This document shows, one piece after another, positions 12,065 to 64,000 of a stretch of DNA of 64,000 bases. The DNA lies in contig CM033110.1 in NCBI GenBank assembly GCA_019321725.1, forward strand, positions 7,185,278 to 7,249,277. Reading direction: 5' to 3'. Position numbers and translations under genes: made by a program. The notes beneath the pieces are model-generated. The model made no database searches. It was not told the origin of the DNA and saw only the letters and a program-made list of their open reading frames with translations. Source of the stretch: Paulownia fortunei. Lineage: Eukaryota > Streptophyta > Magnoliopsida > Lamiales > Paulowniaceae. Each line of letters starts with the position of its first letter. Position 1 is the first letter of the stretch.

Positions 12065-13320
12065 ATTTTACAAGCCCAATATTTTTTACATCCATATAAT
12101 ACATCAAGTAAATAGTTTAAAACTTATACTTGAAGCTTCCAGTTGATGAAGATGTTCTAGAAACAACTCAAGTCATTATCTTGCACAAACTTCTTTAAAA
12201 CTCCAACCCCTTGGTGGAAACGAATCGACTAGAACCCTAAGTATTATTCCTCTAAGTGTATCCACATATCAGAAGGCCACATGCAAACGAACCTATGCTA
12301 GTACGTATCGAATCGATAAATCTATTCTAAGAAACATAGTGTATGAACAAGGATAAACTCACAATTTATCTTGGGCGTATTGATTCAATCTTAATTCAAC
12401 TTATGAAAAAAGAATTAACTAAATCACAAAACTAGAACTATGGTATTGTGGAATACTTGGACAAGAGAAAGAAGAAAGCAATTTTCTTGAAGAGAGAGAG
12501 GGAGAGGCTGAAAATTTCACAAGCATAAGCTTGTAATTTTGGCCCCATATGCTTGCTTATATAGCATGTGTGATTCCATCTATATAGAATCTCCTTTCTT
12601 ATCCAATTCTTATTCCTACAAGGCAAGTCTTGTACCCTAAGTACAAGATTATGATCTTAATTCATCTAGGAATTAAATCTCTATTTATTTCCTAATGAGA
12701 TTTCTACAAACCCATACCCAAAGGAGCTTGACCTAATTAACTAATTGGGTCTAATTTAATTGATCCAATCAATCAAATCAGTTTATCTTATGAATTAGAA
12801 GGCCCACTCTAATTAATTGGTCCAATCAATTAATTATTTGCTCCATGATAGGCTACCTAATCCTTTTTGTTAATTAATTAATCCAATTAATCAATTTAAT
12901 TAATTCAGCATTTGAATTAAATAAGCCCAATATAATTAATTTAATTCAACTCATGAATTAATTCTTATGCAAGAAATGGACTTGTCAAAGTTAGCGTGTA
13001 ACCCTTTAGGTTCACCCATAAGCTAGTAGTGGACTCACAACTCTTACGATTGAATTGAATAATTAATTATTTAATATTTTTATTAATTAATTCAATGGAA
13101 TAATCATTTTGGAATTAACTTATTAATTTTAAGAACCTCACCAATCATGGGTAGCAACTAGAAAAAAGACATGGAGACCTAGATATAGGTGAAAAAGGCA
13201 AATATTTCTAATTACGAATATCATGCAAGTACGACCCTACCATCAATTGATCTCTCGATTAAGCCTGGGGTATAAATTATTAGTTGAAACTAAAATACCT
13301 TAATTTTAGATACGTTTTTT
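12065..13320 (-). repeat. Copia-type LTR fragment in reverse orientation
   Basis: Read on the minus strand, this block resembles the LTRs at 8920 and 22764. The clearest match is near 13000-13050, where the minus strand reads CCACTACTAGCTTATGG then GTGAACCTAAAGGGT, against CCACTACTAGCTTAGTAG at 23774. It abuts the end of copia LTR 1 tail to tail. Neither terminus nor a target duplication could be fixed, so solo LTR versus truncated element is open. Confidence 0.65.
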
Positions 13321-20439: not shown

Positions 20440-22763
20440 TAACAAATAATCCACTAGCAACAATTCTTGAGCAAAACAAATTAACTGGACCAAACTTTGT
20501 CGATTAGCTAAGAAATCTTAGGATAATTCTTAAATTTGGGAAGAGGGCATACATCATTGATACCGCGCCTCATTCGGTTCTACTAGAGGATATTACTTCA
20601 GAGGCTTAGGCAGATTACCTACATCATGTTGATGATAATCTACAGGCTCGATGCTACATATTGGCATCGATGTCAAATGAGCTGCAGAGGCAGAACAAGG
20701 ATCAAGATATTGCTTATAGGATCCTCCTTCACCTACAAAAGTTGTATGGTGAACGTACTAGGCAGATGAGATATTAGATATCGAAGGATATTTTCAAATA
20801 TCGTATGACTGAGGGCTCTTCAGTCCATGACCATAGATTGAAGATGATAGCCCTCATTGAAAGGTTGACATCCCTTGGAGTCGTTATGGAGAACAAACTT
20901 TATACAGACCTTCTGCTGCAATATCTACCTTCCTCATTTGACACCTTTGTTGTCAACTTTAACATGCACAACATGGAGACTAGTCTCCCTGAGCTTGTAA
21001 ACATGTTGAAGACAGCTGAGTCCACTGTGAAAAAGGACAAGCCAATTATGCTTGTTGGATCCTCGTCTGGATCAAAGGTTGCAAAGCCCAAGAGAGGACA
21101 AAAGAAAGGAAAGGGTTCCTGCAAACCCAACAAGCTAAGGCAAAGGGTGGTGTCAACAAGGTTTCGTCTCAAGTTAATGACAAGTGCCATTATTGTGGCA
21201 AACCAGGGCAATGGAAGAGGAACTACAAGGAGTATCTTGCAAACCTGAAGAGTTCAGGTATATATTTTGTTGAAGTTAACTTGTCTGTTAATGATGCTTC
21301 TTAGGTATTGGATACCGGTTGTGGATCACATATTTGCAATGATTTGTAAATAATGACAATAAATAGAAAGTTAAATAGAGGAGAAATAGTCCTAAGGATG
21401 AGAAATGGAGTAAGAGTTGCAACATTGGCTATAGGTACCATTAAGCTAGCTTTTGAGAATGACTCTGTAATAGTTTTGAACAATTATCTTTTCATTTCAG
21501 ATATTATTAAGAACATTATCTCTATTTTGGTTTTAGATAGGGAAGGTTTTAGATTTACCATTGAGAATGAAAATTGTTCCATTTTCAAACATTCTAATTT
21601 TATCTATTCTGGTTCTTTAATAAATTATTTCTATATTGTTAAAACCCATTCTCACAATTCAACAAAATAAAAGAAAATTAGATAATCATAGTTCCATGAG
21701 CCTATATGGAATGTAAGATTAAGGCATATATCTAAGAAGAGGATTAACAAGTTGGCATAATTGTTTGACTAAAAGGACGGGCAAGAATTGCCAACATGTG
21801 AGTCCTGCCTTAAGGAAAGATGACCGAATCTCCATTTGTTGGACAAGTGGAGCGAGCCAAACATATATTGGATTTGATCCATATAGATAAATGTGGGCCA
21901 CTAAGTGTTAGTGCCCGAGGGAACTATAACTACTTCTTAACTTTTACCGATGACTTCTCTAGGTATGGTTATGTGTACCTTTTATGGTTCAAGTCTGAAG
22001 TCTTTGAAAAATTCAAAAAATTCAGAAACCAAGTAGAGAAACAAATTGGCTTAAGTATAAAGACTCTTCGATCTAATCGATGTGGTAAATACTTAAGCAT
22101 AGATTTTTTAGATTATCTAAAAGAGAATGGAATTCTCTCACATTGGACCTCTCTTGCTACTCCACAACTTAATGGAGTTGCGGAGCGCAAGAATCGAACC
22201 TTGTTGGACATGGTTCGATCTATGATGGATGCCATCTAAAGCTGTGCCTAAAAAACCATATGAAATATGGTGTGGTAAGACACTTTTCTATAAATACCTT
22301 AGGCTATGGGGGTGTGCTGCCTATGTGAAGTAGCAAGTGGGAGATAAGTTAGATATGAGATCCATCTTATGCAAAGTTGTGGGGTTTCCAAAAGAGTTTA
22401 TTGGATACTATTTGTATGATGCCTTAAAATAAAAAAAGTATTTGTTTAGAGGAATGGCACCTTCCTTGAAGAAGAATTTTTAGGGTTGGGTGTCGTTCCA
22501 TCCATTGTTGGTCCAGTAATAATTTACTGTGATAACAACAAGCAAAGGAGTTAATTTCTCATCAAAGATCTAAGCACATAATGAGACGATATCATTTGAT
22601 CAGAGAGATCATTGGTAGAGGTGACCTCGTTGTGGATCAAGTTGTTTCAGTAGAAAATATAGTAGACCCACTAACTAAGCCCTTTGCACAGAAGGTATTT
22701 GATAGATATCTTGAGAAGATAGGCCTTATATACATATAATTAGGACTAAGGCAAGTGAGAGAA
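20440..22763 (+). pseudogene. Ty1/copia element 2: gag, protease, integrase; RT deleted
   Basis: Gag begins near 20440 (NPLATILEQNKLTGPN), continues through 20805-21250 and ends in a zinc knuckle that has lost His and one Cys (CHYCGKPGQWKRNYK near 21185). A protease-like segment follows (LDTGCGSHICND near 21310). Integrase spans about 21820-22240 (DDFSRYGY, TPQLNGVAERKNRT). From about 22480 the sequence jumps to the C-terminus of RNase H (LIREIIGRGDL, NIVDPLTKPF, 22540-22740). The whole reverse transcriptase and most of RNase H are missing. Stops in gag (near 20508, 20607 and 20777) confirm decay. Confidence 0.9.
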
Positions 22764-23915
22764 TATTAGAGTATGATGACCAGCACCCCAATTAGATTGG
22801 GTGTATTATAATCCTTTCTTTTGTCAAATGATTTTATTGGAAATCATATTAATATAAAAGGCACTTTCTTTATCATATGTCTTGCATTTTCTTTCTGCAC
22901 ATTAGATAAAGCCCTTAGACCAAATATAGTTGCGGGGCATGGTCGTGTATATGATGGTGATCATAAACATGCCTCTATGGTTTTGGTCTTAAATAAGTTT
23001 CGAGTTGAAAGCTTTTTGAGATAGGACATCAAATAGCTCAATAGACTTGCGCATATGATGCATGCTCGCATGAGGAGAATATCTCATTCCATAGGCATTA
23101 GCGTAGTGTTGCAAGTGCATGTATGCGGGTGCTTGTTAGAAAATAAGTACACTGAATTAGCTTGCCATAAATTCTTAATTGTAAAAATCATTTATCGAAT
23201 TAAGAATCTCTATGTTACGATAGTGCGCGACTAGTTCTTTGACTTGAGGTACTATAGTAATCTTGTATATGTCATGTCTTACTTTGATGTATTCTCTGAT
23301 TGCGTGACAATCACAAAGGGATTGCGTTGAGTATTGCATCTATACGTATGGAGGTTAATAAGTAACCAACGAAGGATCCGTCACTTGTCCAGTAGAACAA
23401 GTGAATATCCTATGTTTTTATTATTCATAGCTCTGAAATCCTTGGCTAATGTATGATGAATGTCAGAAAAGGGTTTTTGATGATTCGTCTAGAGTCACTC
23501 GAACTTGAAATGGAATTATAGTTATTGAGTCAGTTAGGGCTTCTACTTTTATTCATACCCTAGACTCAATCGGTAGATTAGTTGACGGAAGGTCCTTACG
23601 TGCATGGCATTCATAATTGTAATAGGATCACTTAATATTTCACCTAAGACTAGTTTTCCATAACTTGCTAGGTGTTTTTATGAATAGTGAGGTTCTTGGT
23701 TTAAAAGAGTTAATTCCAAGTTGATTAATTAATTAGAATAATTATTATTCATAAGTTGCAAATGTTGCAAGCCCACTACTAGCTTAGTAGTGAACCTAAA
23801 GGGTCACGCATAATTTGGAATGAATAATCTCTATAAAATTATTCGAAAGAGTTGGATATAATTAATTAATTAAGGATTAAATTAATTCACATTAGTTGAG
23901 TTAATTATCTAGTTA
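22764..23915 (+). repeat. 3' LTR of copia element 2, cut by the assembly gap
   Basis: Starts TATTAGAGTATG after GTGAGAGAA, in line with the LTR of copia element 1. It is homologous along its length to 8920-9890 and 11035-11200, so it shows the pre-insertion state of the hAT site near 23780. It runs into the N block, so the 3' end is not visible. Confidence 0.8.
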
Positions 23916-28847: not shown

Positions 28848-31800
28848 CTACTTGTCTTCGGAAACCTTGAAAAATGTGTAAGACAGAATCAAGTTGTTGA
28901 TACCATCCATTTTCGGATCTGTTTCAAACTCGGGGTCTATGTAAAAGAACACCTACAGAATTCATGTTATACATGTTAAAAAGGTCGCAAAAACCATTGG
29001 CATAAGGAATAGAATAGACACCACTTACCGGCATGTCAATCTGTTCTCCGGGAAGAAGTCGTTGCTCTTCAAAGCAGAAACATTGTATTTTATTGAAGTA
29101 AACTGCGGCCTGAAAATTTCATTGGTTGAAACATTAGTCTTCCACAGAAGCCACAAACTAAGACTAGAGAATAACAAATGATTCCCCTCACAGCATAGTA
29201 ATGATATAGAAACAACAAGATAACAATAAAGGAACCAGTAAAGAAAATGGTGGTCTTCCAAAATATCATGTACACATATGGTCACATCATTGGCGTCATG
29301 TTATGTGATGTCATCGTGGTGGTGTGCATAAAAAATATAAAAGAGAAAATAGATTTGAGCTGCTTTCATAGGTAAGCCCTCAAGTACACAAAATTTTCCT
29401 CAAATTTCACATCATCCCTAAAGCAACATTAGATTTCTATTCCATGATTATCCCCTTTCATTTGTTTTATTTCAAATCAACAGACAAGCAGTTGACATGC
29501 TTTAATGTTGGAAACTATAAAAATTAAAATATGCATGGCTCAAATGTTTGTAAGAGGAAAGAAAATTGACGGAATGCAATGTTTAGTGCCTCTTGATACT
29601 TGGAAAATATATAATTAATGAGAACTTTAATAGTCTGGGTGACTTGAAATAGTAGAAAAAGTACGGTGGGGGAATCAAAAAGGTTTCAGAAGCAATTATA
29701 AAGAAGCATGGTCCAGGCCTTTTACTCTTCCAATAGTCAAACTAGTATTTTTTATCAAACATTTATGCGTGATTTTTTATAGTAGATCATCATGCAACTA
29801 AGAAATAGACGTAGACCACATGACAACCATGCACAATAATATGCAGAATAATATAGTCACACTTAGTAATAACACATGAAAACAAGGAACCAAAAACATT
29901 ACTACGAGTGATAACATGATGACCAGACAGGCTTTAGCAGCAAACAGAAGACTGATAACCAAACCGCACATAGGCACAGGCTGGTTTACATAAAAAAGAC
30001 TACACAGAAAAGGGCAGACAACAAAGACTACAAATAGTTATATTTTATATATGAATTGACTCCAGTAGAAACCCCAAAGAAACATTATATTTAATGCATC
30101 AATAAACAATGGTGGGAGACAAATGTGCGAAGCAAGCATCTACCTGCATAACAGAGCACAAACATTTATAAAGCGCCAGAGCATGCACATGTACCAACAT
30201 CAGTCATATGGAAAAATCAGATATCAGTTTTTTCTAAGTTGTGAATTTGGCTATGGCTTGGATCTCACGAGTAAATATTTGGCTTCTAAGCTGTAGGAGG
30301 AAAATTGGGAAATTGATGGAGCAGATAATGGTTTATTTTTTGTCTTTGGTGGGGATGCGAAGGGTGTGCTGGCGAATGTACACTTAAGGCGGAGGAATGG
30401 GGTACATCATAGTTGTTACTGAATCCCTGTTGTGATTTAATAATAACTCTGGGTCTAAAGACAATAATCCTCAAATGAGGGTTGGACAGGAAGATAGGCA
30501 GAAATATAACTGAGCTTACACAGTTACACTCAGCCGGTAATACCCACACGAAACTGCAAATTTAAAAAGATGGATATGCCTGCACAGAAGGGTTAACAGA
30601 TAAGTGCTAATATAATGGTCATGCAGACTTGCTTAAGCAAATTGAAAGGCAAGACTGCACACAATTAAGACTTGAGAACACCCAAAACACTACACGAGAA
30701 CTTCCAGACTAAAGAAATCAAAATGGTAGAACACAAAAGATTTTATAATAGCTTTCTTATGCTGAATGAAGGTCCCATACATGCATGACACTGAATGCAC
30801 CAAGAAGCAAATAAATCTAATGGACTGCAACCACGTACTGCCTGCACATATGGGTATAACAGCACCAACGTAATACAGCACCAAGCATGAAATTGTGCAT
30901 ACCTCATGCACATATAGTAATTAACAATCACACTTGAAAAGCATTTTTCAATTTGTTCTTTAGTTCTAAAATTGGCACAGGCTAGTTCAAGAAGCAGATA
31001 CTGTTGCAACATGACAGTGGCAACTTTGCTTCCAACTTGAAGAAGGAACTCTTTGAGATTTAAATATTAAATACCACTCCTATCGAACAGCTAAAGCTTT
31101 TGATGAAGTGGGCATTCAATATGGTATCAAAGCTAGGCAAAGTAGAGGACTCAGTTCAAATCTCACTGCAATCCAATGATGAAAACGATCCCACATGTTT
31201 GGCCTCAAAAAGAATCGCTTGCATGTGAGGGGCATGTTGCATAAATGTTGAATGTCACTCCTCGTTAATAGCTCAGTTTTTAGATGAGACAGGCACTCAA
31301 TAGGAAGTTCAAAAAGTATTGGCTTGACAACTTGATGCATTCAATGGCATCACAAAGGATCTGTGCACGTATTTTGCAGCCAAGGATAGGAAGGATAGGG
31401 AAGCGCCAGGTACAAGGCAGGATTCAAATTACACTTATGTATCATGAGGTATTGAGCACTATCCTAAGTGTAAATAAAAACTCAAATGGAGATCCCATAG
31501 GCTGATTGATTCAACACCCATTCAGCTTTATGTGAATAAACACTTCAATGAAGATTCAAAGGCTTGTTCTCGAAGTTAAAACATACGAGTAAGGATCAAG
31601 AAGTGTTGACAAGGTTCTTAAGCGGATAGAATATAGGATCTTGTGCAGTCTATAAGTTTAACCTTGCAGATAAATTAAGGAATCTAGAAATCCCTCCGAG
31701 AAGCCCTTTAGGCCTCACATAAGCGCAAGAAAGCTGTAATATAATGTACAAAGCGTTATTGATTAACCTCCACTGAGATCTTGAAATTACATGCCTATTT

Positions 31801-41575: not shown

Positions 41576-43198
41576 TGATAAGTGCATATTTTGACATATT
41601 TTTCTATCAAATTCTTTATACTTTTCTTACTTTATTCTTGTTAATATTATTGTTTTATTATTGTTTTATTAATATTTTATGTTAGGGAATAAATGGAAGC
41701 ATGTTTCCAAACTTGTACAGTTTTTATAATTTGAGCATAACTTCATGATCAAAAGCCCTGTGGACCTGAAGCTTATTTCATTTGAAAGCCAAGAGATAGA
41801 GGTACAACTTTTCTGTCGGAAGCTCAGCCCAATTCAGTCTTAATGATAGCAGAAAATTCGTCCAAGTAGTTGTAGAAAATAGATCACCAAAATTCAGATC
41901 AGAGTTCAGCCCAATATTGATGTTTTTTACCAATTCGGTTATATATCATGAGCCTAAATTTATTTTAGGCTGAAATTTGGATATGTTATACCCAAGAGGT
42001 AAATAAACAAGTTTGCTGAAAACAAGATGGTGTGAAAATGTGTTGACATGGTAAAAACATAGGCTGCAAGTTGCTGCTGCTGTTAAAGGGCGGCTCTTGG
42101 ACATGACTCGGTAATTTGACCATATCTCCTTCATCCGACCGTAAAATTTGAAAAAAGATATATGAAAATATATCAGCGTTGAAAGATATACAATTTTTAT
42201 TCTTCACATGTCTTCAAAATCGGGATGTATCTAACCAAAAAATGTAATTCAATTTAATGGGTGAGAAATTTGTGTAACAACTTACCAACTCTTGGCAACT
42301 AGCATACCACTTGATTAACCCCTCCATTGTTTGTTTGGCCTCTAGCTTACTCCAAGTACTATAAATAGGCCATGTATTAAGCTTGTAAGAGGAGGGGGGT
42401 AGAGGGTTTCTTTAGGCTAAGTTATCTAGTTTGTATGTTTTCTAGTATTGTAAGTTTTCTAGTAGTAATAGAAATGCATTCTCTAGTTTCTCTTATATTT
42501 TTAGTCTTTGCTACTTTTATTATGTCTTTCTAAATTTTATTTTGCTGAGGAAAAAGGGTGAATCTCTTGATGGAGGAAGAGAAATGGTTATAAGGGTAGA
42601 AATTATTTAAGTATGTTGAATTATTATTTTTATTTTTGATCTAAACCTTACTTGTTTTGTGGTGATTCTTGATTTATGTATCTCCAATAGCACAACAAAT
42701 ACTTGGGTTCATTTAGCTTATTGTACGGTTTTACCCCACCAACTGCTAATGTGAAACCTTGATTTGTTATTGATGAAGGTGTGCATAAATGCTAGATCCC
42801 ATAAATAAGTGTTGACGTTAAGAAATAATTTGCAATAATAAGACAATATCATGATTACCTTATTGCATGAGTTACTTGATAATATCTTCCTATTGGAACC
42901 TTCATTATATATGGATTCCAATTGTGGCAATTAATAGAGGTAAAAAGAATAAATAATCATTTCTCTATCCAAAACTCAGGAGTAGATCCCTAATCCTCAG
43001 TACTTTTATTATTTCAGTTTTTCTTTAGTTACATCATTCATTAATTGTTCATATATTTTGATTCACATAAACTCCATCTTTTTAGAAATATAAAGTTGAA
43101 TTCTTCAAACAACTTCCTTGTGGATCGACCTCGGACTCACGAGAAATTTATTACTTACTACAACCTGCACTTGGGTTTGCAACCTTAAAGTTGTAGCA
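41576..43198 (+). repeat. 5' LTR of element C
   Basis: 1623 bp, starting TGATAAGTGCATA and ending GTAGCA just before the primer-binding site. The first 545 bases or so match 54952-55500. A TATA-like CTATAAATAGGCC lies near 42360, followed by a likely leader. The phrase CTTGTGGATCGACCTCGGAC near 43120 is typical of this lineage. ORFs here are chance frames. Confidence 0.88.
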
Positions 43199-43204
43199 AG
43201 TTTT

Positions 43205-43220
43205 TGACGCCGTTGCCGGG
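43205..43220 (+). other. Primer-binding site of element C (tRNA-Asp type)
   Basis: TGACGCCGTTGCCGGG, one base different from the tRNA-Asp 3'-end complement TGGCGCCGTTGCCGGG. It lies six bases after the LTR end, the same spacing as in element B. Confidence 0.88.
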
Positions 43221-44523
43221 AAGGCAAGGTAAGTATTCAGGTTTGTTAATATTTTTCCTTTGTAAATATAGTTTGTTTATTTTCTTTATGGATATATGGT
43301 TATATGGTATCGTAGTCATAATTCTTGACGTTTAGTAAGAAATAATTCCGAAACTTTGTTTGAAACTTTGTTTGAATCATCTCCACACACTTCCACCATG
43401 GTTGAAAATAAAAGTGTCTAGGATGAAAATGAGAATCAACAGGTGCGTACCATGCGTTATTACTTGCAACCTCCTCGAAATTCTTCTCCTTCTTGTTTCA
43501 TTTTTCCTCTAAATGCAAATAATTTTCGATTCAAGTCAGGTATGATCCCTTTACTTCCTAATTTTCATGGTTTAGACTCTGAAAGCTCTTACTTGTATTT
43601 AAAAGAATTTGATGAAGTATGTGCCACTTTTGATGATCAAACTTGCACAAATGAGATTGTTAAGCTCAAATAATTTCATTTTTCTTTAAAAGATAAAGCA
43701 AAAAATTGGCTTAATTCTTTAAAACCTAGGTCAATTGGCACTTGGCAAGAAATGCAAGCTGAATTCTTGAAAAATTCTTTCCAACTCATAAAACTAATGC
43801 TTTGAAAAGACAAATTCAAAATTTTTCTCAAAATTCGAATGAAGCTTTTTTTCAATGTTGGGAAAGATTTAAAGATTTGTTGAATTCATACCCATATCAT
43901 GGTTTTGAAAAATGACGCTTAATTAGTTTCTTTTATGAAGGTTTAACTCCTAAAACAAAATAATTTGTTGAAACAATGTGTAATGGTGAATTTCTTGACA
44001 AGGAACCTGATGAAGCCCTAGAATATCTAGATCATTTAGCAGAAAACTCTGAATCATGGCATAGTGTTAATTCTTTCGAAGGTTCTATTAGATCTAATCT
44101 TGCTAATAGTAATAAAGAAAAATATTACCTTAGCCAAGAAGATGATCTATATGCTAAGCTTGCTAGTTTAACAAGAAAAGTTGAAGCCATGGAACTTAAA
44201 GAAGTAAAGGAAATCAAATATGTGCAAGAGGAAGAAGTTTGTAGCAATTGTGAACTTTTGGGGCACTCCACCAATGAATGTCCAAACATTCCAGTACAAG
44301 CAAATTTTATGAACACATTCAAAAAACCTTTCCATTCTTCATATTCTAAAACTTACAATCCACAATGGAGAAATCATCCCAATTTCAGTTGGCGAGATGA
44401 TAACCGTGCCCAACTACTGCATTCACAAAAATTATCAAACTTTCATTTTTATCCAACTCCACATACAAAATCCATTGAGGAGACTTTGCAAGTATTTATG
44501 CATGAACAAACAAACATCAATAA

Positions 44524-47404
44524 TGTAACACCCTCATTCCTACACAACCATATATATTGTATAATTTGACATGATAGAACCTGTGTGCATGCATGGAATA
44601 TTTATTTATTTATTTAACATTTTAAGAAAAGCTAAATCACTTCTTACATACACAACCCTGTTTAAAATAGAAGGATCAGTATTTATATAAAAACACAACA
44701 CCCATAACGACCACAATATTTACATACTTATTTATAGTAAAGTGTTAAAAGAGAAATATAGTACCAATCTAAAAACATAATACACCAGACTCAAAATATA
44801 ACAAGCCAACAAAATAGCCCAACAGGTCGTCATCCATGTACACACTCCCTCAAACACCTGCAGGAGCTCCAACAGCCGACCAACCAGCCAAAGATGCTTC
44901 AAGCATCGTCGTACTCACCTACAATGCATAAACTATATGAGCTAACGATCAGCAAGTAAAGATTATGCATGTCAAAGAATAATCCACAATATCAAGTCAT
45001 GTAACTCAAAATGCTATGCTCACAATGCAATTTTATGCATCAAAATATTTCTCTCAAAATCATTTCTTTCTTGGGCCCCTGACCAACGCTACTATCCATG
45101 CACCGGAAAAGAGCTCTGTACACCGCCATAATCCAATGGCTAATAATCATATAAGCATGCAAATCCATGCATACTCATACGCATGCAAATCCATGCACGC
45201 GAACCTGCAAATCCATGCATAAAACCATGCAAATCCATGCATGCTTCGATGCACTAGTAGTGGTCAGCAAAACATTTTCCTTTCTCTGAATCATGCCGTG
45301 CAATGCAAGATTTATCACAATGCTCGTATATGATGCATGCACGTGCTAATGATAATGCCCATGTATGTATGCTCAATGGAGAGCCCTCTACTATGCACAT
45401 ATGATTTATGATATCACATATAATTCACACATCTACTATGTCTATGCATTGTGGTTGCAAATGAATCTTTACTTACCTTTCACTTGGTTGGTGGCTTAGT
45501 CTAAATTTGTTTAGTATTCCTCTCCAACCTTAGATGTAAAATAGCCTGTAATATTACCCAACATCAATCACCATTCCCAATTTGGCAAGTTGAAAGCACA
45601 AAATCTCATACTAGACCTTAAACACCAAGCTATAAGCTAACAATCAAGCTTTCACAAACTAGAACCCAATACAGCCCCTCAAATACCTCAATTTCTCATC
45701 TTAAATGCATGCAAACATCATGTAATTGAAGTATTATAACTCTAATAGCATGTACCTAATTGTTAACCCTCAATAGCAACATATCAAGGTTGAAACATGC
45801 TAAGTGATCAAATGTGGCAGATTCACATTTTCATATTTTCTTGCTGTCAAGTTTAGTTGCATGATAATTTTAACATCCCTAAGCATATCCAATCACTCCC
45901 AAATTTTTACCACACTTATATAACATGTATATAAATGTAACCATATCATATAATTGCTAAAAATTACGGATATAGCTTCCCAAGTTCAGCTCTCTTCACA
46001 ACATACTGAAACAGATTGTTTCCTACCGTGACAGTTTTGCACACTTCATGACATTAATGGTTTTGGCACCCTTAAGTATATTCAATCACTCCAACATTTT
46101 CACCATACTTAGATAACATATATAAGGAGACAAACAGGTCATATTATTACCAACAATAATGGATTTAGCTCCCTTAATTCAGTTTCCTTCACAGCACACC
46201 AAAACAGATTTTGCTATTTTGGCAGTTTGAGTGTTTCTCCAATATCATTCTCTATTTCAATTTCCAACTGATAAAACTTCATTCCAATACTCTTAACTCA
46301 TATATGGTCATGTAAATGGTAATAATTATAGGTTTTATTCAACATACCATACACTTTTGAAGCCTAAAACACAAGAAAACAGTAAGATGACAGTTTCTGC
46401 CACAAGTATTTCCTATTAAGTGTTTGTGATCAAAAACCCTTTCTTTGTGCACCAAAGTCTAACTAAAAACTTCATAACACTTTTATAAGAGATATTTAAA
46501 GCTTAATAAACCATAAAACCATTCATAATAATCTGAAAACCAAAGGCAAAACCGTAGATAAGTGTTACCTATGCAGATTTTGAGGCTAACTTGATGGTAA
46601 TCACTTTTTCTTTGCTTTTCTTGCTTTTATTTCAACTTGGAATCAATTTGGATCACTTGGAGACCTTAAGGTGTGTGTTTGGAAGATGAAAATGGATGAA
46701 ATGAGGGTCTGATCGTTTCTTAAGGGTGAAGGGTTGGAGGTGTTAGCTTGAGATGTTAGCTTAAGCTTAATAAGAAAGCATGAGGTGGCAAGTAAATGGC
46801 AAATCTGATTTTCTCCCTTATCTTGCAGCCCTAATCTTGTGTGTCTCATCTATTTTTATTTGGTTGCAACCTATCTTAATCACCATTCATTCCCATAGGT
46901 AATTCCTATGTCCGTTCATTCGATCTCCAAACCGATTCGCATCCGATTCTTAAAGAATTATCTAGTTTGCATTTCTAAAATCATATGCACATAAGGGCCT
47001 TGTAATATGACACTTAAATCATATTATATCATGTCCAATATCCCAAGTATACTAATTTACAAATATATACTTTTGAAATAACTTGATCAAATCAAATTAA
47101 ACCGTATAAGGTTACTAGTAACACTTTTAGCACTTCCAAAATTATAACCTATATATCCCATCTATATCTAATATTGATCCACCTCATTTTCTTCTTATTT
47201 CAATATAAAATCAACTACTTAGATTAAGAAATTCAATAACTAATATCGTGCAAGAGCTTCAGCATTAAGTTTAATATTCAAGAATGTCGTATAAAATAAA
47301 ATAAATTATGCAATGTCAATAGAAATGCAAATAGCATATAAAATTAACATGTAATGCATGAATCATATTTGGCCATGTGAGTAGTAAGAGGCTCGGGTAT
47401 CACA
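44524..47404 (-). mobile_element. Solo LTR of a Tekay-like retrotransposon nested in gag
   Basis: 2881 bp bounded by TG...CA and flanked by a perfect 5-bp duplication, AATAA, at 44519-44523 and 47405-47409. In the minus orientation it starts TGTGATACCCGAG. It is homologous to the LTR at 62865-64000, sharing AAAAGTGTTACTAGTAA and ATTTCAAAAGTATA. No internal coding region is present, so it is a solo LTR formed by LTR-LTR recombination. It contains a cluster of CATGCA motifs. Confidence 0.92.
45155..45244. repeat. Four-copy TGCAAATCCATGCA repeat (RY and octamer-like motifs) in the solo LTR
   Basis: The motif TGCAAATCCATGCA occurs four times in about 90 bp with spacing of about 20-25 bp. Three copies are extended at the left to CATGCAAAT. 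CATGCA is the core of the RY element bound by plant B3 factors, and ATGCAAAT is an octamer sequence. Another CATGCA lies near 45098. The role is inferred from motif identity only. Confidence 0.8.
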
Positions 47405-47960: not shown

Positions 47961-48556
47961 AATTCACTCCACCCAAGTACAAAGATCCAGGTTGTCCAAC
48001 CATTTCATGTATTATAGGAAACACTAGAATAGAGCGTGCTTTGCTTGATCTTGGTGCTAGTGTAAATCTTCTACCTTTCTCAGTTTATGAACAGTTAGGT
48101 TTGGGAGAACTTAAAACAACTTCTGTTGTACTCCAACTAGCAGACCGTTCGATTAAAGTTCCAAAGGGAATAGTAGAAGATGTGTTGGTACAAATTGATA
48201 AGTTTTACTTTCCAGTTGATTTCATTATTTTGGACACAGAGCCTGTTGCACAAACACATACACAAATTCCTATCATTTTGGGTCGTCCTTTTCTTGCAAT
48301 TTCAAATACTTTGATCAATTGTAGAAATGGTATTTTGAAGTTATCATTTGGAAATATGACTTTGGAACTAAATGTGTTTAATGTTTGTATGCAACCTGCA
48401 GAAGATGTCGAAGTACATGAAGTGGATTCAATTGAGGAAGTTGTTCATGAATACTTTACTACTACTAACTCTTCAGATTCTTTGGAGACTTGTTTTGAAA
48501 GTGAAAGTATTTATAAAAAGGCACACACTAATACCATCTCTGAATTTTTGCAGTAA
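47961..48556 (+). pseudogene. Protease (retropepsin) region of element C
   Basis: Aspartic protease domain of the polyprotein. It begins after the stop at 47960 (TPPKYKDPGCPT), and the catalytic DLGASVNLLPF lies at about 48044-48077. The open frame from 48041 runs 171 codons. Further family features are LQLADRSIKVP, VDFIILDTEP and IPIILGRPFL. The domain itself looks intact, and the frame ends with TAA at 48554. Confidence 0.9.
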
Positions 48557-50140
48557 TAAGAAAAATATTTTTGGAAGCTAAGGTTCGAAGAACTTTCATT
48601 ATCAACAGTAAAATGTATTCCATTAAGTATTAAAGCTCCCGTGGTTGATTTGAAACCTTTGCCAATTAATTTGAAATACTCTTTCTAGGGTGAGAATGAG
48701 ACTTTTCTAGTAATAATTTTTTCCAAACTCGATTCATCTCAAGAAGGTAAGTTGATCGAAACTCTAACAATGCAAAAGAATGCTTTAGGATGGACCATTG
48801 CTGATATTAAAGGTATTAATCCTTTCATTTGCACACATAACATCTATCTAGAGGAAAATGCTAAACCTTCTAGAGAAATGCAACGAAGGCTAAATCCTAA
48901 TATGAAAAAAGTAGTGAGAAATAAAGACATTAAACTCTTAGATAATGGAATCATTTATTCTATTTCTGATAGCAAATGGGTAAGTCCTACTCAAGTTGTA
49001 CCTAAGAAATCTGGAGTTACTGTAGTCAAGAATGAGAATGATGAATTAATTCCAACTAGGACTGTTACTGGTTAGCGAATGTGCATTGATTATAGAAAAC
49101 TCAACTCAGTTACTAGAAAAGATCATTTCCCATTACCTTTCATGGATCAAATTTTAGAAAGAGTTGCGGGACATAATTTTTATCATTTTTTAGATGGATA
49201 TTTTGGGTATAATCAAATTGCAATTGCACTTGAAGATTAAGAGAAAATAACTTTTACATGTCCTTTTGGTACTTTTGCATATCGAATGATGCCTTTTGGA
49301 TTATGTAATGCACCAGCTACATTCCAACGATGCATGCTTAGTATTTTTAGTGACATGGTTGAACATTTTCTTGAAGTCTTCATGGATGATTTTTCTATTT
49401 TTGGTAATTCATTTGATGATTGCTTATCTAATTTAGAAAAGGTTTTGATTAGGTGCGAAGAAAAGAATCTTGTGCTCAATTGGGAGAAATGTCACTTCAT
49501 GGTAATAACTGGTATTGTTCTTGGATACATTATATCATTAGAAGGTATTGAGGTTGACAAATCTAAAATTGAGTTAATTGCCAATTTGCCAACACCAAAG
49601 ACTGTGAAGGAGATTAGATCATTTTTAGGACATGCTGGTTTTTATAGAAGATTTATCAAAGATTTTAGTATAATATCTAAACTTTTGTGTAATCTTCTAA
49701 CAAAAGACACTATTTTTGAATGGATTGAAAACTGTGAAAATGCTTTTGTTAAGCTTAAAAGCATGCTTACATCTGCTCCAATCATGCAGCCTCCAGATTG
49801 GACTTTACCTTTTGAAATAATGTGTGATGCTAGTGATTATGCTGTTGGAGCTGTCTTGGGACAAAGAAAAGATAAAAAACCATATATTATTTACTATGCA
49901 AGTAAAACTTTAAATGGTGCACAATTGAATTATACAACAACTGAAAAAGAATTCCTTGATGTAGTTTTTGCATTGGACAAATTTCGATCTTATCTTGTTG
50001 GCTCACCAATTGTTGTTTTCAGTGATCATGAAGCTTTGAAATATCTATTGTCAAAAAAAGATGCTAAACAAGACTGATTAGGTGGATTCTCTTACTCCAG
50101 GAATTTAATGTTACTATTCGAGATAAAAAGGGAGTAGAGA
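48557..50140 (+). pseudogene. Reverse transcriptase and RNase H of element C
   Basis: The RT fingers and palm start near 48880. CIDYRKLN follows just after a TAG at 49073-49075 that sits where Trp is normal, and FLDGYFGYNQ is near 49195. A TAA occurs at 49238-49240 where Gln is normal. The catalytic FMDD is intact near 49382. RNase H begins at about 49818 (MCDASDYAVGAVLG) with TTEKEF and SDHEALKYLL. The long frame 49286-50077 is open. A one-base loss near 50070 shifts the frame before the integrase. Confidence 0.92.
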
Positions 50141-51541
50141 ATGTAGTGGCTGATCATTTGTCGAGACTTGTTTGTGATGACTCAGTTCAAACCACACTTA
50201 TTAATGACACTTTCCCTGATGAACAATTATTTAACGTTTCTATTTTACCTTGGTTTGCTGACATTGTTAATTTTCTTGTAACAGGAAATATGCCATCACA
50301 TTGGAACTCTCAAGATAAAAAGAAGTCTTTGACTGAGGTTAAAAATTTTTATTGGGATGATCCATACCTATTCAAATATTGTCCGGATCAAATCTTTCGA
50401 AGATGTGTGCCTGACAATGAGATAGGTAATATTGTCAAATTTTGTCATTCAGAAGCATGTGATGGTCATTTTTCTGTAAAGAAAACTACTGCAAAAATCT
50501 TGCAATGTGGATTTTATTGGCCAACTCTTTTCAAAGATACTTACACTTTCTGCAAAAGTTGTGAAAATTGTCAAAAGTTAGGGTCCCTTTCAAAGAGAAA
50601 TATGATGCCCCTACACCCTATCCTAGTGATTGAAATCTTTGACTGTTGGGGTATTGATTTTATGGGGCCATTTCCATTATCATTTGGTTTTCTTTACATA
50701 TTGGTTGCCATAGATTATGTTTCAAAATGGATCGAGGCAATTCCTTGTCGAAACAATGATCACAAAATAGTGATAATTTTTTTGAAAGAAAATATTTTAA
50801 GTCGATTTGGAATTCCTAGATCTATTATCAGTGATGGGGGAAAATATTTTTGTAACAAAGTTTTTGGAACTTTAATGAAGAAATATGGAATCATACATAA
50901 AGTTGCAACCCCTTATCACCCTCAGACAAATGGACAAGTTGAACTTGCAAATAGGGAGATAAAATAAATTTTGGAGAAAACAGTTAACCCAAACCATAAA
51001 GATTGGTATCTTAGACTTACCGATACACTTTGGGCATATAGAACTGCTTTCAAAACATCATTAGGCATGTCTCCTTATAGGATAGTTTATGGAAAACCTT
51101 GTCATTTACCTGTTGAATTTGAACATAAAGCTTATTGAGCAATCAAAATGTTTAACTTCAACCTTGATGAAGCTTCAAAATTGCGCAAATTGCAAATCAA
51201 TGAACTTGAAGAACTGAGAAATGATGTATATGAGAATTCTAAAATTTATAAAGCAAGAATCAAAGATTTTCATGATAATAAAATTTCAAGAAAAATATTT
51301 GAGGTTGGTCAAAAGGTTTTTGCTTTATAATTCTCCATTGCATTTGTTTCCTGGAAAATTGAGATCAAGGTGGAGTGGTCCTTTTGTTGTAAAAAAAATA
51401 TATCCTTATGGGGCGATTGACATTGAGAATCCTAGAAATGGTAACATATTCAAAGTAAATGAACAAAGAGTTAAACCATTTCTAGAAAATCAATTTTCAC
51501 AAGAGAAAATTCTTTTTCTTTCTAACCCTTGTTATGATTAG
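50141..51541 (+). pseudogene. Integrase of element C
   Basis: Starts around VADHLSRL (50140). The zinc-binding HHCC region lies at about 50445-50575 (HSEACDGHF, CKSCENC). The catalytic core has all three acidic residues visible: GIDFMGPF near 50655, SDGGKYF near 50830 and the Glu in GQVELANREIK near 50945. Stops at 50965-50967 and 51136-51138 look like Gln and Trp codons turned into TAA and TGA. A frameshift near 51300 separates the C-terminal part (51335-51541, LRSRWSGPF). Otherwise well preserved. Confidence 0.9.
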
Positions 51542-51752
51542 TGTTGTATATATTCTTTTTTATCTGACATTATTTTTTATTTTTCTTCTTCTCTTCTTCT
51601 TCTTTTATTTTTTATTTTTTCTTTTGCCGGTTAAATGGCGGATAACGGTACTCCGTGGCTATAAAAGTCGGACTTGTCAGTTTCCCAAACAACTGAAATC
51701 CTTGTACAAATTTTCTTTGTTTTTCTCATTCACTTTTCTTGTTATTTTCAAA

Positions 51753-52310
51753 ATGGGTGACATTTTTCTAACTCTCAAGAAGCGATTTCCTTTTCTTCCT
51801 AAAAATGCAATTTTGAAAATTTATAAAATCAGGATTGAAAGATTGAGGATGCTTATGCACAAGGGCATCCCGGAGGACATACGATGGATAATTGAAGCAA
51901 AGGTAAGAGCAGGTGAGTTTTCACATGAGTTTCCAGATTTGCTTACTAGATACATGTCTGGTTTTGGTAAAAGCACATATTCAAAAAAACGAAGGGTGAA
52001 AAAAATGAAAGTTTGTCATATTTGTGCTAGATGGACTTGCAACACAAAGTGTCGTTCTTTAGGAATGATCTCTAAAAATCGAGAAGATAAACTTAAATTC
52101 ATTATGGATGGACTGAGTAAGGAGTCTTTAGATCACATTATATTGACTCTTGAGACATATTCATGTGGATTGGTACAACGTGCAATTCTTGATTTATGAG
52201 ATCGTTTTCGAAATGAATATGAGCTTTATAGTCTTGGGAATCTGACATTAAAAGACCATGTTTGCCAGTTTATAAGAAAACTGGATGGGAAGCATATCCT
52301 CGACCCATAA
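51753..52310 (+). CDS. Accessory ORF of element C, Cys-cluster protein of unknown function
   Basis: The ORF from ATG at 51753 encodes 148 residues to TGA at 52197-52199. The same frame then stays open to TAA at 52308-52310, and the TGA sits where Trp would fit (after LDL, before DRFRNEY). The protein is basic in its first half (LKKRFPFLPK, RIERLRMLM). At about residues 90-103 it has a tight Cys cluster, CHICARWTCNTKC (C-x2-C-x4-C-x3-C), which could bind zinc. The T-rich frame upstream (51534-51752) would add a hydrophobic stretch but is probably noncoding. It lies between integrase and LOG. I do not recognise the family, and it does not look like a typical Athila env-like protein. Whether it is translated is unknown. 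Confidence 0.55.
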
Positions 52311-52550
52311 AGGGCATTTAAGCCGTTACTGGACGTAAAACCAGAGGAAGATGTGAGCCACAATCACAACTACATGTACATACACGTGTTAGTAGGTAAT
52401 TTTTAAATTTCGTATGTGTCCTTTATTTTAATCTTTTTGACAAAAGAAAAAGACATGCAATAAATGTATTCCCTGTTCACACCTCAATAAATATCACCGT
52501 ACTCACTCTATTTTTGCACAACTTATTTTCAAAAAAAAAAAATAAAAAAA

Positions 52551-53199
52551 ATGGAAGTTTCTTCAACTCGCAAATTTAATTCCATTTGTGTTTTTTGTGG
52601 ATCCAATCTAGGAAAAAATGGTGAGTTTATAGGGGCAGCCAGTAATCTTGGTAGAACTTTAGCAGAAAGAAAAATTCATTTAGTGTATGGGGGAGGCAGT
52701 TTGGGGTTAATGGGGAGTGTTGCTATTTCTGCTTATGTAGGAGGAAAGTTCTGGGAGTTATCCCAAAATCTTTAACAGTACAGAATATCACAGGTATGAC
52801 CATTGGAGATGAGCTAAAAGTGTCACATATTCAGGACAGAATGCCTAACATGTTAAACAATGCGGATGCATTCATCATTCTACCTGGCGGTTTTGGTACA
52901 CTGGAAGAATTATTCCAAATTGTCTCTTGGGCACAACTCAACATTCACCAAAAACCTATAGGTATTCTTAATGTTAATGGTTTTTATGATGGTTTGCTAT
53001 CTTTTGTAGATCATGCTGTGAAAAAAGGGTTATTTCAACTTCTGCGAGAAGAATCATCATTTCTGCTCCAACACCTGACCAGCTGATTGATCAACTTCTA
53101 GCATATGTGCCAAAACCTGATCCAGCCTTGGCCAATGTGGATTGGTCCAATAGGAACAATGGTCGAAAACGCAAATTGAATTTGACTCTCAGTCTGTGA
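52551..53199 (+). pseudogene. LOG: LOG-like cytokinin riboside 5'-monophosphate phosphoribohydrolase, intronless copy captured in element C
   Basis: Plant LOG enzymes release active cytokinin bases from their nucleotides. Almost the whole protein is recognisable over about 216 codons: ATG at 52551, ICVFCGSN near 52584, LVYGGGSLGLMG at about 52680, the signature PGGFGTLEE at about 52883-52909, WAQLNIHQKPIG, ISAPTPDQLIDQL, and TGA at 53197-53199. Two single-base frame changes (near 52750 and 53040) break the frame, so as assembled it is a pseudogene. Host LOG genes normally have several introns and none remain here, which points to capture from mRNA. It sits in sense orientation between the accessory ORF and the 3' LTR. 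The C-terminal extension (KPDPALANVDW, RKRKL) suggests one particular LOG subgroup. Confidence 0.92.
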
Positions 53200-54951
53200 T
53201 ACTTATTGTTAATAATTTTATCTAATAGTATGTGTTTTTTTTTGTTGTTTCAGCTTTATTAGCCGCATTTCAGGTGATATCTTTCAAACTCTACTTTCCT
53301 ATCTATTTTTGACATTGGGGACAATGTCTCGATTAGGTTGGGGGGAGGGATAATTGATATCATGACTTGTATATTCAATGTGTTTTTTTTTAGTATTGAA
53401 AAAAAAATATAAAATATATATTATATATATATAATATATATAAATCAAGCGTGTTTTTTTTATGGGTCCGTTGAAAGCATGAAAAAAAGGTGGCTGAGTA
53501 AAGGGTAATTGTAACACTCTTGAGACGCATCCCTATTTTTTGCATAACATGGCAGTTTGTAAAGTTTTTAACAAGTATTTGTGAATTATTAATTTTTTTT
53601 TGAGTCGTATAGGTTCTTCCAACTTCAATGATTAAAATTAAGCATGAATAATATGGTTTGATTGATGATGGGTGTTGTTTTGGACTTTGATGTTGTTATT
53701 TGGTTAATATATTTTTGTGATAATTATACTCAAATTTTATTTTGCACAAATAGTTATGTTATTTAGTTTGAAGACAATCATGTCAAAATATATAGTTCTT
53801 ATGCCCTTGCTCTAATCATCACTTGAATCTTCAACATGTAGGGGTTGAGTATTAGAACTTTTACTTTTGGTCTGTCGAGGCGAACGACTGATAGTGCACC
53901 ACTAGAAAAATGATTAAGGCATTAGGCTTTCTAGCACCATTGCCAAATCAGCTTGTTCCCTATATGATGTTTAAAGAAAACATCCCCCTAGTAAACCACT
54001 TTGAGCCTTACAATAAATAAATATTTTTTTTGTAACCATATCTTTTTACCTTGCCTAAATACACTATTATCCAACCCTTGTTCTAAAAATGATTGGAGTT
54101 TAAGAGACATTCAATTGAAAGCTTGGACTTACAAAAGAAATTCAGGTTGGGATAGAAGATAAGTGTGGGGGAGTTTCTCTTAAAAAAAAAAAGAAAAAAA
54201 GAAAAAAAGAAAAACAATATAAAAAAAAGTTGCAAAGTGCTACAAGTTGCAACTAAAAATGAGATGTTGCAAGATGAATAAGAGGGGTCCAATTCAATAA
54301 CAATAGACTCCAGTGTGAAATTTGTGGAGTTGGAGAATTCTTCATCGATAAATTTTATGTCTCTAATTCCATGAAGTTTTTAGAACCTTTGTTGCATCTT
54401 ATCCTTTTATTTCTTAGCTAAATCACCACCCTTTGGCCCCATTACAACCTTTGTTAAAGACCTTTTAATTTCGTGTGGTGCTTTCAGTGTAGTTGAGATT
54501 TGCACCAAAGGAAGAGCCTATGATGTTTAACTTTTCTGTTAGAGATTGGGTGATGGTTTTGTAAGGTTTTATGAGAATTCACTTATTTGAAACATGCATA
54601 GTTTCATCACTATTGACAGTAACTGTCCACACACACACTTGAGTATGATTATTGTGGAAATGTATTGATTTTTGAATGACTAAGAGTTAAACTCAACACT
54701 TGTTTGATTTTATTTCCATATTACTTTGTTGCTTCATGAGAATAAAAGTTGGAAGATAGTTATTATAGGTGTTTGTAGGTATCACTGCTGGAAACCTTCA
54801 CGAGACTATAACTCATCCTCTATGGGCCACCTAGGGGTTTAAAGGCTTGTTGCATATGCTAAATACAATCGTGATTTCCTACGAAAGTGGATTAGTTTAT
54901 GTTTGTTTTAAGCTTGCTCGAGGACAAGCAAGGGTTAAGTGTGGGGGAAAT
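53200..54951 (+). other. 3' noncoding region and polypurine tract of element C
   Basis: Noncoding. Contains the phrase GGGGACAATGTCTCGATTAG near 53318, a type of sequence common in the 3' region of Athila/Tat elements (compare GAGGACAATGTTAATTTTA near 57370). A TA-rich microsatellite lies near 53400-53445 and an A/G-rich run at 54178-54230. The last 315 bases match element A. The polypurine tract AGTGTGGGGGAAAT lies at about 54938-54951, directly before the LTR. Confidence 0.75.
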
Positions 54952-55500
54952 TGATAAGTGCATATTTTGACATATTTTTATATCAAATCCTTTATACTTT
55001 TCTTGCTTTATTCTTGTTAATATTATTGTTTTATTAATATTTTGTGTTAGGGAATAAATGGAAGCATGTTTCCAAACTTGTGCAGTTTTTGTAATTTGAG
55101 CATAACTTCATGATCAAAAGCTCTATCGACCTGAAGCTTATTTCATTTGAAAGCCAAGAGATAGAGGTACAACTTTTATGTTGGAGGATTAGCCCAATTC
55201 AGTGTTGATGATAGCAGAAAATTCATCCAAGTAGTTGCACAAAATGGATCACCAAAATTCGGATCAGAGTTCAGCCCAGTATTGACTTATTTTACCAATT
55301 CAGTTATATATCTTGAGCCCAAATTTATTTTGGTCTGAAATTTGGAAATGTTATACCCAAGAGGTATATAAACACGTTTTCTGAAGACAAGATGGTGTGA
55401 AAATGTGTTGAAATGGTAAAACCATAGGCTGAAAGTTGCTGCTGATGTTACAGGGCGGCTCTTGGACATAACTCGGTAATTTGACCATATCTCCTTCATC
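54952..55500 (+). repeat. 3' LTR of element C, truncated
   Basis: Starts TGATAAGTGCATA after the polypurine tract and matches the 5' LTR to CTCCTTCATCC (55500). It then switches abruptly to unrelated sequence, so about two thirds of the LTR is missing. By eye roughly 40 differences from the 5' LTR over the shared part. Confidence 0.88.
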
Positions 55501-56280
55501 CCCTTCGTTGTTGATGGGGGTTGCTCGCCAGTAAGTTGCTGTATTACTGGCGGCATATGCTTGAGCTACGCGCTGCTCTCGCTACTGATTAGGGCTACTC
55601 CCCTATTGGCTACTGTACCATCGGCAGCTCAAGTGCATAGCTTGAGCTGTCCTTATCTGAAATCTGCCTTTTCGCATCGAGCATTAAGGTGCATCTCTTC
55701 GGGTTAACCTCTAGTTCAATGTTGAGTAGTGTTATTTCCTCAGCTTTTCACATTCCTCACAGTCATTTTCCTTGAGTGGTAGTCCAGTTGATCTTGCCTA
55801 TCTTAAGGATACTCTCCCAAAAGAATTGAGCCTATTCTTAGTCTTCCTGAGTATACCAATGAGTCTGGGGAGGATGAGGAGTTGGATGATTTAAGTGATG
55901 AGTCTTCTAAGTCAAGTAAGGTTGGAGTTTCTTTAGGATATGATAAAATCTAAAGGAGTGGGGGATCCACCCTCACGAGAAAAAGATGTCATCCGGAGCA
56001 TTAAATTCTACTTCCACAAACCAGTCCCACTTAGCCCATTCTCGTGTGATGGACATAGAGGGTTGGGATACTTTTTTGAGTCTTGATGATCTTAGATTGG
56101 TGTGTAGGAAGCTTTCTTTGTCTACTTGTCATAGGTTTGTTCTTCCTCTCAAGGGTCCTTGGAAATAGATTTTTCTTCATCTCTATTTTGCCTTGCTTGC
56201 TTCCATGTAACATCTTTGTAATGCGTCAAGTGCCTTTATCCAAGTAATTTGACTTCATTGCACTTCATTCTATGGCATCC
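55501..56280. other. Unassigned sequence between elements C and D
   Basis: Starts with a GC-richer stretch (TTGCTCGCCAGTAAG...) at the break in the 3' LTR of element C. A 60-codon frame at 55986-56168 (MSSGALNSTST...) matches nothing I recognise. Probably the 5' remains of element D or another repeat. No supported gene. Confidence 0.4.
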
Positions 56281-62864: not shown

Positions 62865-64000
62865 TGTAATATCTAAGCCTCAAACTACTCACTTAGCCAA
62901 TATGATTCATATATTATATGTTATTCATATGTTGATTGCATTGATATTAGCATGAAATAATTCATTTCATCCTATAATCCAATTTAATCATTAAATGTCT
63001 AAAACTCTTGTATGGGGTTGGTTGGTGATATTCCATAAACTAAGTAGTCAATTTTACCTTAAGATAAGACGGAAAATTAGGTTGATCAATATATTTAATG
63101 TTCCTGGATTATGTCATAGTTTTGAAAGTGTTAAAAGTGTTACTAGTAAGCTTATAAGATTTGATTTGATTTAATCAAGGTATTTCAAAAGTATAAACTG
63201 GTTAATTTCATACTTGGGAATAGACATGACATGTCATGATTGAAATGTGATACTACAAGCTTCATATGCATGTGAGATTATCAAAGTACAATTTTGACAA
63301 CCATGTATGAATCGAGTGTCAATCGGGTTCAAAATCGAATGAATGGTTAGGAAATAGGGTTGGAAGTATTTATAGAATCATGTGGTGATTAAAATAGGTT
63401 GTAAGTAGATAAATGTACATCTTAAAACATGTGATTTAGGCTTTTAATGTGGGCAAAAAATATGATTTTTACCATCAGTAGCCACCTCAAGCTCTTGCCA
63501 CCTAAGCTTAAGCACCTCATGCTACCACCTCAAGCTTTTCTTCACTCTTAAGCACTAACTCACGACTCATAACCATTTCTGAGTCATTTCACCTTCCAAA
63601 CACCTACCTTAAGCCCTCCAGGTTGTTCCTAGGTGATTTCAATTGAAAGGAAGCAAAGTGAAGTTGTAACTGCCAAGTTAAAGCTGAATTTGTGCATAGG
63701 TGAGGTTCACTCACGGTTTTGACATTAATTTAGATATTATTTGAAGGTTTTATGATTTCTAAAGATTATATTCTTCTTTCTAATCATGTTAGGGTGTCAC
63801 TGGTGATTGTATTATTCACAAAACACGGATTTTTTGTTGCAAAGTCTTAGTATGAGTCACTAAAGGCATAAACTGTGTAGTTGCTGATTTTGATATTTTA
63901 AACTTTACAAAAATGAGTAATACCTTCAGCAAAACCTATATTTTCACCATGGATGTGTTTATATATGAGTCTAGGTTATGGATATAAGTTTGGAAAGGTT
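62865..64000 (+). repeat. 3' LTR of the Tekay-like element, continuing past the window
   Basis: Starts TGTAATATCTAAGCC after the polypurine tract. It is the same family as the solo LTR at 44524-47404 in the opposite orientation, sharing AAAAGTGTTACTAGTAA near 63133 and TTTCAAAAGTATA near 63182. If it has the same length as the solo LTR it would extend about 1.7 kb beyond the window. Confidence 0.85.

Follow-up and report, generated by a model that had tools for sequence, protein, structure and literature searches.

Can a plant retrotransposon carry a hormone-activating enzyme as a standing part of its equipment, and what would the enzyme do for the element? The question is raised by a 64,000-nucleotide stretch of the Paulownia fortunei genome (assembly GCA_019321725.1, contig CM033110.1, positions 7,185,278 to 7,249,277; hereafter the window), which contains an Athila-like Ty3/gypsy long terminal repeat (LTR) retrotransposon with a frame of the LOG family (cytokinin riboside monophosphate phosphoribohydrolases) placed between the integrase and the 3′ LTR. 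An earlier annotation made from the letters alone (the sequence-only reading) had described an intronless LOG frame at 52551-53199, in sense between integrase and polypurine tract and inside the two LTRs, and our frame analysis and Pfam searches agree with it (Table 1). Missing from that annotation was a second accessory gene, which lies 5′ of LOG and encodes a protein resembling the nucleic-acid-binding proteins (NABPs) of carlaviruses. We found that both extra genes have been amplified together with the element, standing in sense after the integrase in the copies examined. The overall account that we favor, with moderate confidence, is that of a large, recently active Athila-like family with two accessory genes, whose LOG was captured by an old ancestor, has been retained, and would act on the host.

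Both accessory genes are multiplied with the element

We searched the 509-Mb P. fortunei assembly for further copies. A first look with the LOG-frame DNA as the query gave 2323 candidates; all 40 that were scored, among them the window copy, cover at least 97% of the frame. A 38-base pattern on the LOG active-site motif, permitting up to three mismatches, occurs at 420 places genome-wide, and the reversed control at none. A search with the AtLOG3 protein gave 150 scored matches out of 3296 candidates, all intronless and each spanning at least 170 of the 197 residues; counted from the listing, 101 of these are stop-free and 49 have one or two stops, in a scoring that is biased to unbroken frames. 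A small contig (G000:C600) holds two equally scored LOG matches, at 11541-12119 and 31160-31738, separated by 19.6 kb; the locus was either duplicated, in tandem or as a segment, or doubled in the assembly.

The order integrase, NABP-like gene, LOG, spacer, LTR is identical in all 20 copies that we fetched with long flanks (the integrase is partly covered in three, and the LTR is interrupted in one). Among 20 further, more diverged copies, for which about 0.8 kb upstream was read, the NABP-like gene stands 5′ of LOG in 19. Of 21 copies, 8 have an open LOG (one of them without its ATG), 6 an open NABP-like gene, and 5 both. The sequence-only reading had looked to further copies with the order pol, LOG, LTR, some with an open LOG frame, for its support, and such copies are present; LOG between integrase and 3′ LTR is a feature of every copy fetched and not of the window alone. 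That a later, independent LOG retrocopy inserted into the window element by itself has almost no probability left, as all 20 fetched copies, spread over many chromosomes, have the same LOG at an identical position, and we reject it. We regard the anatomy and the multiplicity of the element as near certain.

The LOG frame belongs to a group shared with other plants

The LOG frame carries the signatures YGGGSLGLMG and PGGFGTLEE and runs in the sense of pol. In the window, two frameshifts (near 52745 and 53034) spread it over three reading frames; it is otherwise stop-free. Pfam Lysine_decarbox (the LOG family) matches its middle piece at E 2e-31, well over the cut-off, and the closest solved structure to the read-through protein is that of At2g37210 (E 1.5e-60). 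The frame is not a chance product, because 12 relatives share complete 217-aa frames at 94-96% identity to it. Membership in the LOG family follows from profile and from the motif PGGxGTxxE, with TIGR00730 over its cut-off in all five LOG sequences scanned; the NCBIfam equivalog cut-off does not discriminate here, since an AtLOG3 piece falls under it too. Fused pol-LOG gene models were sought among 36 candidates, none of which reached E 1e-10. A bacterial origin of LOG was ruled out: every listed relative with an organism name comes from a plant, and Arabidopsis proteins are the two best structural matches. Five plasmid records match the frame over 18-30% of its length, and a viral-contig scan with LOG gave three loci with 40-44% identity, at contig ends.

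For comparison among plants, we analyzed the best 120 of 7921 accepted LOG relatives. Their sources include Paulownia, Rehmannia, Orobanche (with clusters that hold up to 328 sequences), Reevesia (44 of the 120 rows), Diplodiscus, Populus, and Xanthoceras. Over its length the Paulownia protein is 59-69% identical to 18 chosen relatives. The tree was made from 89 rows with a midpoint root, after three fused gene models had been dropped, Reevesia had been thinned to 14 of its 44 rows, and two Arabidopsis LOGs had been added. A single clade (support 100/99) unites Paulownia, Rehmannia, and Orobanche, and within it Rehmannia and Orobanche group together with one further row (100/97). With Reevesia, Diplodiscus, and Populus they make up the element-type LOG group, itself one clade, which is separated from AtLOG3, AtLOG8, and a Xanthoceras row at 100/99. 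Within Lamiales, the capture of LOG is likely an old single event. The sequence-only reading had credited the capture to the window element itself; the tree points to an old ancestor as the probable captor.

Beyond Lamiales, two points weigh against a single old lineage. The branches between plant orders are weak, and a retrotransposon location of LOG outside Paulownia is one that we infer from the cluster sizes, from the published Citrus and Populus cases (see below), and from one Xanthoceras gene model, which fuses LOG with a piece resembling the gag-protease linker of the studied element (BLASTP E 2e-13). We consider it possible, if doubtful, that several captures by different elements occurred and that the wide clade is a patchwork drawn from one host LOG subfamily. 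A Xanthoceras LOG (P0120) would fit such a history, since it falls on the side of the Arabidopsis LOGs and keeps an Arg-Lys pair at its active site, though a gene model from that plant joins LOG to gag-like sequence; so would the weak inter-order branches and the host LOGs in the tree, none of which is of the right subfamily. However, the loss of an active-site lysine and a C-terminal tail (both described below) are common to the rosid and asterid forms, and the branch order within Lamiales matches what we take to be the species order.

The element LOG keeps the catalytic residues and has lost a base-contacting lysine

In the LOG protein of Corynebacterium glutamicum, the proposed catalytic residues are Arg99 and Glu122, Lys100 helps to hold the adenine, and Ala replacement of binding or catalytic residues nearly abolishes activity, with one exception (PMC4979012). 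The window LOG keeps the equivalents of Arg99 and Glu122, and at the position of Lys100 it has Met, as do most Paulownia rows. PGGxGTxxE is found in 106 of the 120 relatives, both glutamates in 102, and the arginine in 110; in the other 10 the position was not read as Arg, with two possibly misplaced by our simple rule. The Arg-Lys pair is intact in five relatives, four of them from Xanthoceras. We consider cytokinin activation by the element LOG plausible, and a point against it is that 105 of the 120 relatives keep the Arg and carry Met, Ile, Leu, or Thr in place of the Lys: because the residue that contacts the base is replaced, activation may be weak, altered, or lost. Thus, of the proposal in the sequence-only reading that such elements spread a hormone-activating enzyme, the multiplication of LOG copies stands, whereas activation is not borne out.

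A pattern search found KRK followed by L-x-L-x-L in the C-terminal tail of 95 of the 120 relatives, an arrangement that we take to resemble a basic signal plus an EAR-like motif.

The same residues bear on a rival account, to which we give a minority share of belief, that the element LOG has been repurposed and does not activate cytokinin. Its base specificity would have changed or its activity been lost, and it could serve, for example, as another nucleotide hydrolase or as a nuclear protein acting via the conserved tail. The near inactivity of the C. glutamicum Ala mutants agrees with this account (the available part of that source does not list the mutated residues), as do the relatives that have lost the lysine while keeping the catalytic arginine, the further 10 without the arginine, the 14 of 120 that deviate from PGGxGTxxE, and the KRK-LxLxL-like tail. 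Most relatives nevertheless keep the motif, both glutamates, and the arginine. In addition, the Xanthoceras forms retain Arg-Lys, a change of Lys to Met is not a change of Lys to Ala, and the EAR-like meaning of the tail is our own assumption.

The second accessory gene encodes a carlavirus-type NABP-like protein

In the window copy, the frame upstream of LOG matches Carla_C4 at E 2e-4, just over the cut-off. We found 74 relatives, for which the named plants are Paulownia, Orobanche gracilis, Xanthoceras, Rhamnella, and Parasponia. Some LOG and NABP-like hits lie on contigs of equal length, but these agreements were put down to chance and dropped as evidence that the two genes are linked. Among 36 aligned relatives, Carla_C4 matches 35 and Viral_NABP matches 33 (E up to 0.1), with best E values of 1.9e-7 and 2.2e-8, respectively; in the first aligned member, Viral_NABP is over its cut-off and Carla_C4 just under. 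The alignment shows a basic stretch and then a C-x2-C-x4-C-x3-C finger. On these profile matches we assign the predicted product to the C4 zinc-finger proteins of the carlavirus nucleic-acid-binding family, one viral member of which, chrysanthemum virus B (CVB) p12, activates transcription in the nucleus and suppresses silencing (PMC7588395). The predicted structure of the NABP-like protein has a predicted local distance difference test score (pLDDT) of 58, too poor for fold comparison. Two scans of viral contigs gave no NABP-like relatives. Upstream of the gene, a TATAAAA site is a possible internal promoter; GGCTATAAAAG at this site is exact in 19 of 20 copies.

Recent activity, broken frames, and modest selection

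The LTR pair of one copy differs by a Kimura two-parameter distance (K2P) of 0.0019, which at a rate of 1.3e-8 substitutions per site per year corresponds to an insertion age of about 0.07 million years. For a second copy the value is 0.017 (readable 476 b), and for the window pair it is 0.079 (550 b). Median between-copy distances are 0.012 for LOG, 0.013 for the NABP-like gene, 0.016 for the integrase, 0.014 and 0.020 for the spacers, and 0.029 for the LTR. In the sole copy with both LTR ends readable, no target-site duplication was seen.

The lesions of the 13 broken LOG copies are 19 deletions, 18 of them single-base; insertions and stops are absent. The 21 copies of the NABP-like gene contain 18 deletions and 6 insertions, with stops in two copies. 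In the youngest measured LTR pair, there are 6 gap positions compared with 3 substitutions over 1616 sites. Because the LOG lesions are nearly all single-base deletions without stops, and because gaps outnumber substitutions in this LTR pair, the frameshifts resemble assembly error, and the broken LOG frames look more like such error than like decay; on the other side, more diverged LOG copies do contain stops. The sequence-only reading had suggested that the two frameshifts might be decay of the window copy only. They may also be assembly errors.

The 21 copies were checked for dN/dS, as the sequence-only reading had proposed. In LOG, substitutions shared by at least two copies yield a ratio of nonsynonymous to synonymous change (omega) of 0.35 (14 changes, P 0.048), and private ones yield 0.79. 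In the NABP-like gene the shared value is 0.32 (10 changes, P 0.07) and the private value 1.6. With 20 older copies added (41 in total), shared LOG changes give an omega of 0.65 (137 changes, P 0.012) and private ones 0.97. These values modestly favor selection on LOG before insertion. Several results weigh against a retained, useful pair of genes: selection within Paulownia appears modest; shared NABP-like changes over 40 copies give an omega of 0.77, not a significant departure (94 changes, P 0.15), and private ones 1.15; and NABP-like stops are at chance level (18 compared with about 15 expected), with 8 of the 18 common to several copies. In the enlarged set LOG has 3 stops compared with about 13 expected, a low number that proves nothing because the added copies, chosen by a protein search favoring unbroken LOG, were selected for this property.

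We think it unlikely that LOG is a passive passenger that rides on a successful element and brings it no benefit. The nearly neutral private changes and the modest selection within the species are what such a passenger would show, and genes captured in one or a few copies have been reported for plant LTR elements (PMC7264820). Against it, full-length open frames remain 59-69% identical to relatives in other plants, two-thirds of the AtLOG3-query matches are stop-free (in a sample biased to open frames), and the shared LOG changes lean silent.

A possible mechanism, and comparison with known systems

We postulate the following course. An intronless host LOG transcript would have entered an ancestral element long ago, before the split of Paulownia and Orobanchaceae and perhaps before that of rosids and asterids, and would have been retained since. 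The NABP-like and LOG proteins would be made from the element RNA or from the internal TATA promoter. The NABP-like protein could dampen small-RNA silencing, act in the nucleus, or do both, like viral p12, and LOG could free active cytokinin (or a related base) from its nucleotide within the same cell. Cytokinin would then push the cell toward division or a meristem-like state, and new insertions might thereby reach the germ line. We hold this mechanism of expression, dampened silencing, and cytokinin release only tentatively. Its widest form, a rosid-asterid retrotransposon lineage with a host-manipulation cassette (a virus-type suppressor or activator plus LOG) that selection would have preserved over tens of millions of years for promoting division and blunting silencing, is likewise speculative; if true, the cassette would be a plant counterpart of the accessory genes of complex retroviruses.

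LOG-carrying gypsy elements as a category are older than this work. The abstract of Steinbauerova et al. (2011) reportedly describes two Athila-like elements with LOGL4-like open reading frames (ORFs). A YgdH (LOG-family) domain has been recorded in gypsy consensus sequences of Citrus sinensis and C. clementina and, under a laxer filter, of Populus trichocarpa (PMC9289625, citing Steinbauerova et al. 2011 for YgdH/LOG-domain gypsy elements). Because these Citrus and Populus cases are published, the category was already known, and the statement in the sequence-only reading that no LOG-carrying gypsy family had been described does not hold. Those elements share with the Paulownia element the same LOG-family extra domain; however, the report is a line in a domain screen, the available text of which is silent on copy number, age, companion gene, active site, and phylogeny, and does not name Paulownia or the other genera with LOG relatives (PMC9289625).

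Other systems share single features. In orchids, Ty3/gypsy elements likewise have a host-derived enzyme fixed as an extra ORF, but it is a different one, an AlkB-type RNA demethylase; it was reported from two Phalaenopsis species and is active in vitro (PMC9289625). Pepper NLR genes have likewise been multiplied through retroduplication by LTR elements, but there a defense-gene family is involved, which apparently has not become fixed as an accessory gene in a single lineage (PMC5664825). Carlavirus NABPs such as CVB p12 resemble the Paulownia protein in Carla_C4, Viral_NABP, and the basic stretch followed by a C4 finger; the Paulownia form, in contrast, resides in a retrotransposon, and 35 plant forms are 56-93% identical to one of them. 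Among the matches listed in open-licence PubMed Central text, we found no report of a plant LTR element with a carlavirus-type protein. A reference survey set 250 codons as the minimum for an extra ORF (PMC6317226) and passes over both genes because their 185 and 217 aa fall below this length. The paired NABP-LOG cassette, its scale, and its altered active site seem to be new; the abundance, spread, and companion gene of these hormone-gene passengers, of which Citrus and poplar gave earlier glimpses, appear so too.

The accessory genes of plant LTR elements are described as mostly without known function (PMC6317226, PMC7264820). Both genes of the Paulownia element have named relatives with testable activities, and a fast-growing tree carries them hundreds of times, with near-identical LTRs in at least one copy. 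The system would permit a direct test of whether a transposon alters host hormone levels or silencing for its own advantage. A practical consequence is that counts of the LOG family can be inflated, because some relatives of the element LOG bear LOG enzyme names in public gene sets.

Anatomy of the element and its surroundings

The element has the order protease, reverse transcriptase, RNase H, integrase between two LTRs, as in the Athila clade of Ty3/gypsy. The integrase matches rve at E 2e-15 and Integrase_H2C2 at E 1e-12, and its C-terminal pieces gave no convincing profile match. In the pieces scanned, neither a chromodomain nor the additional RNase H (aRH) of Tat type was matched, and broken frames could hide a decayed domain. 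In 16 of the 20 fetched copies the window 5′ LTR can be aligned unbroken to the region of the 3′ LTR, and in the other 4 it aligns partially. The remainder of the 3′ LTR was not found in the window, where the 0.9 kb after 55501 is unmatched in the 20 fetched copies. In another copy, TGGCGCCGTTGCCGGGGA follows directly after the LTR; its letters presumably pair with tRNA-Asp. The pol order, the lack of a chromodomain match, a primer site possibly of the tRNA-Asp type, and sense extra ORFs before the 3′ LTR are likenesses to the Athila lineage, in which the extra ORF is env-like, unlike the enzyme and NABP-like ORFs of the Paulownia element. Use of a tRNA-Asp type primer has been reported for Athila-lineage elements (PMC1142308).

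Table 1. Features of the LOG-carrying element in the window
Feature	Position	Strand	Remarks
5′ LTR	41576..43198	+	about 1623 b; begins TGATAAGTGC
Primer binding site	43205..43222	+	2 differences from TGGCGCCGTTGCCGGGGA
gag region	43422..44569	+	fragmented; zinc knuckle match under its cut-off
Nested insertion, 2.9 kb	44525..47404		no strand; 44524 abuts 47405 in the 2 copies examined, both without the insert
Protease	47963..48556	+	Asp_protease_2 E 2e-6
Reverse transcriptase and RNase H	49241..50077	+	RVT_1 E 2e-16; RT_RNaseH_2 E 1e-32
Integrase	50068..51541	+	zinc-binding and core domains 50068-50967; C-terminal part in broken frames
TATAAAA, candidate internal promoter	51660..51666	+	93 b 5′ of the NABP-like start codon
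Extra gene 1, predicted NABP-like C4 zinc-finger protein	51753..52310	+	185 aa; one in-frame stop at 52197
Extra gene 2, LOG (cytokinin riboside monophosphate phosphoribohydrolase family)	52551..53199	+	two frameshifts
3′ spacer	53200..54951	+	polypurine tract at its end, about 54942-54950
3′ LTR, partial	54952..55501	+	first 550 b of about 1623 b

Part of the nested insertion (46296-47404) is 67% similar to window 62865-63970 on the opposite strand. At 166-3442 the window holds a related element, the pol of which is about 65% identical to that of the studied element; its pol is followed almost directly, from 2689, by sequence resembling 54639 onwards, with the NABP-like gene and LOG absent between, and it is either a LOG-less relative or a deletion. 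Finally, the window holds a pair of direct, diverged repeats at 4972-9900 and 21167-23782 (66-82% identical), which probably stem from a different family of elements.

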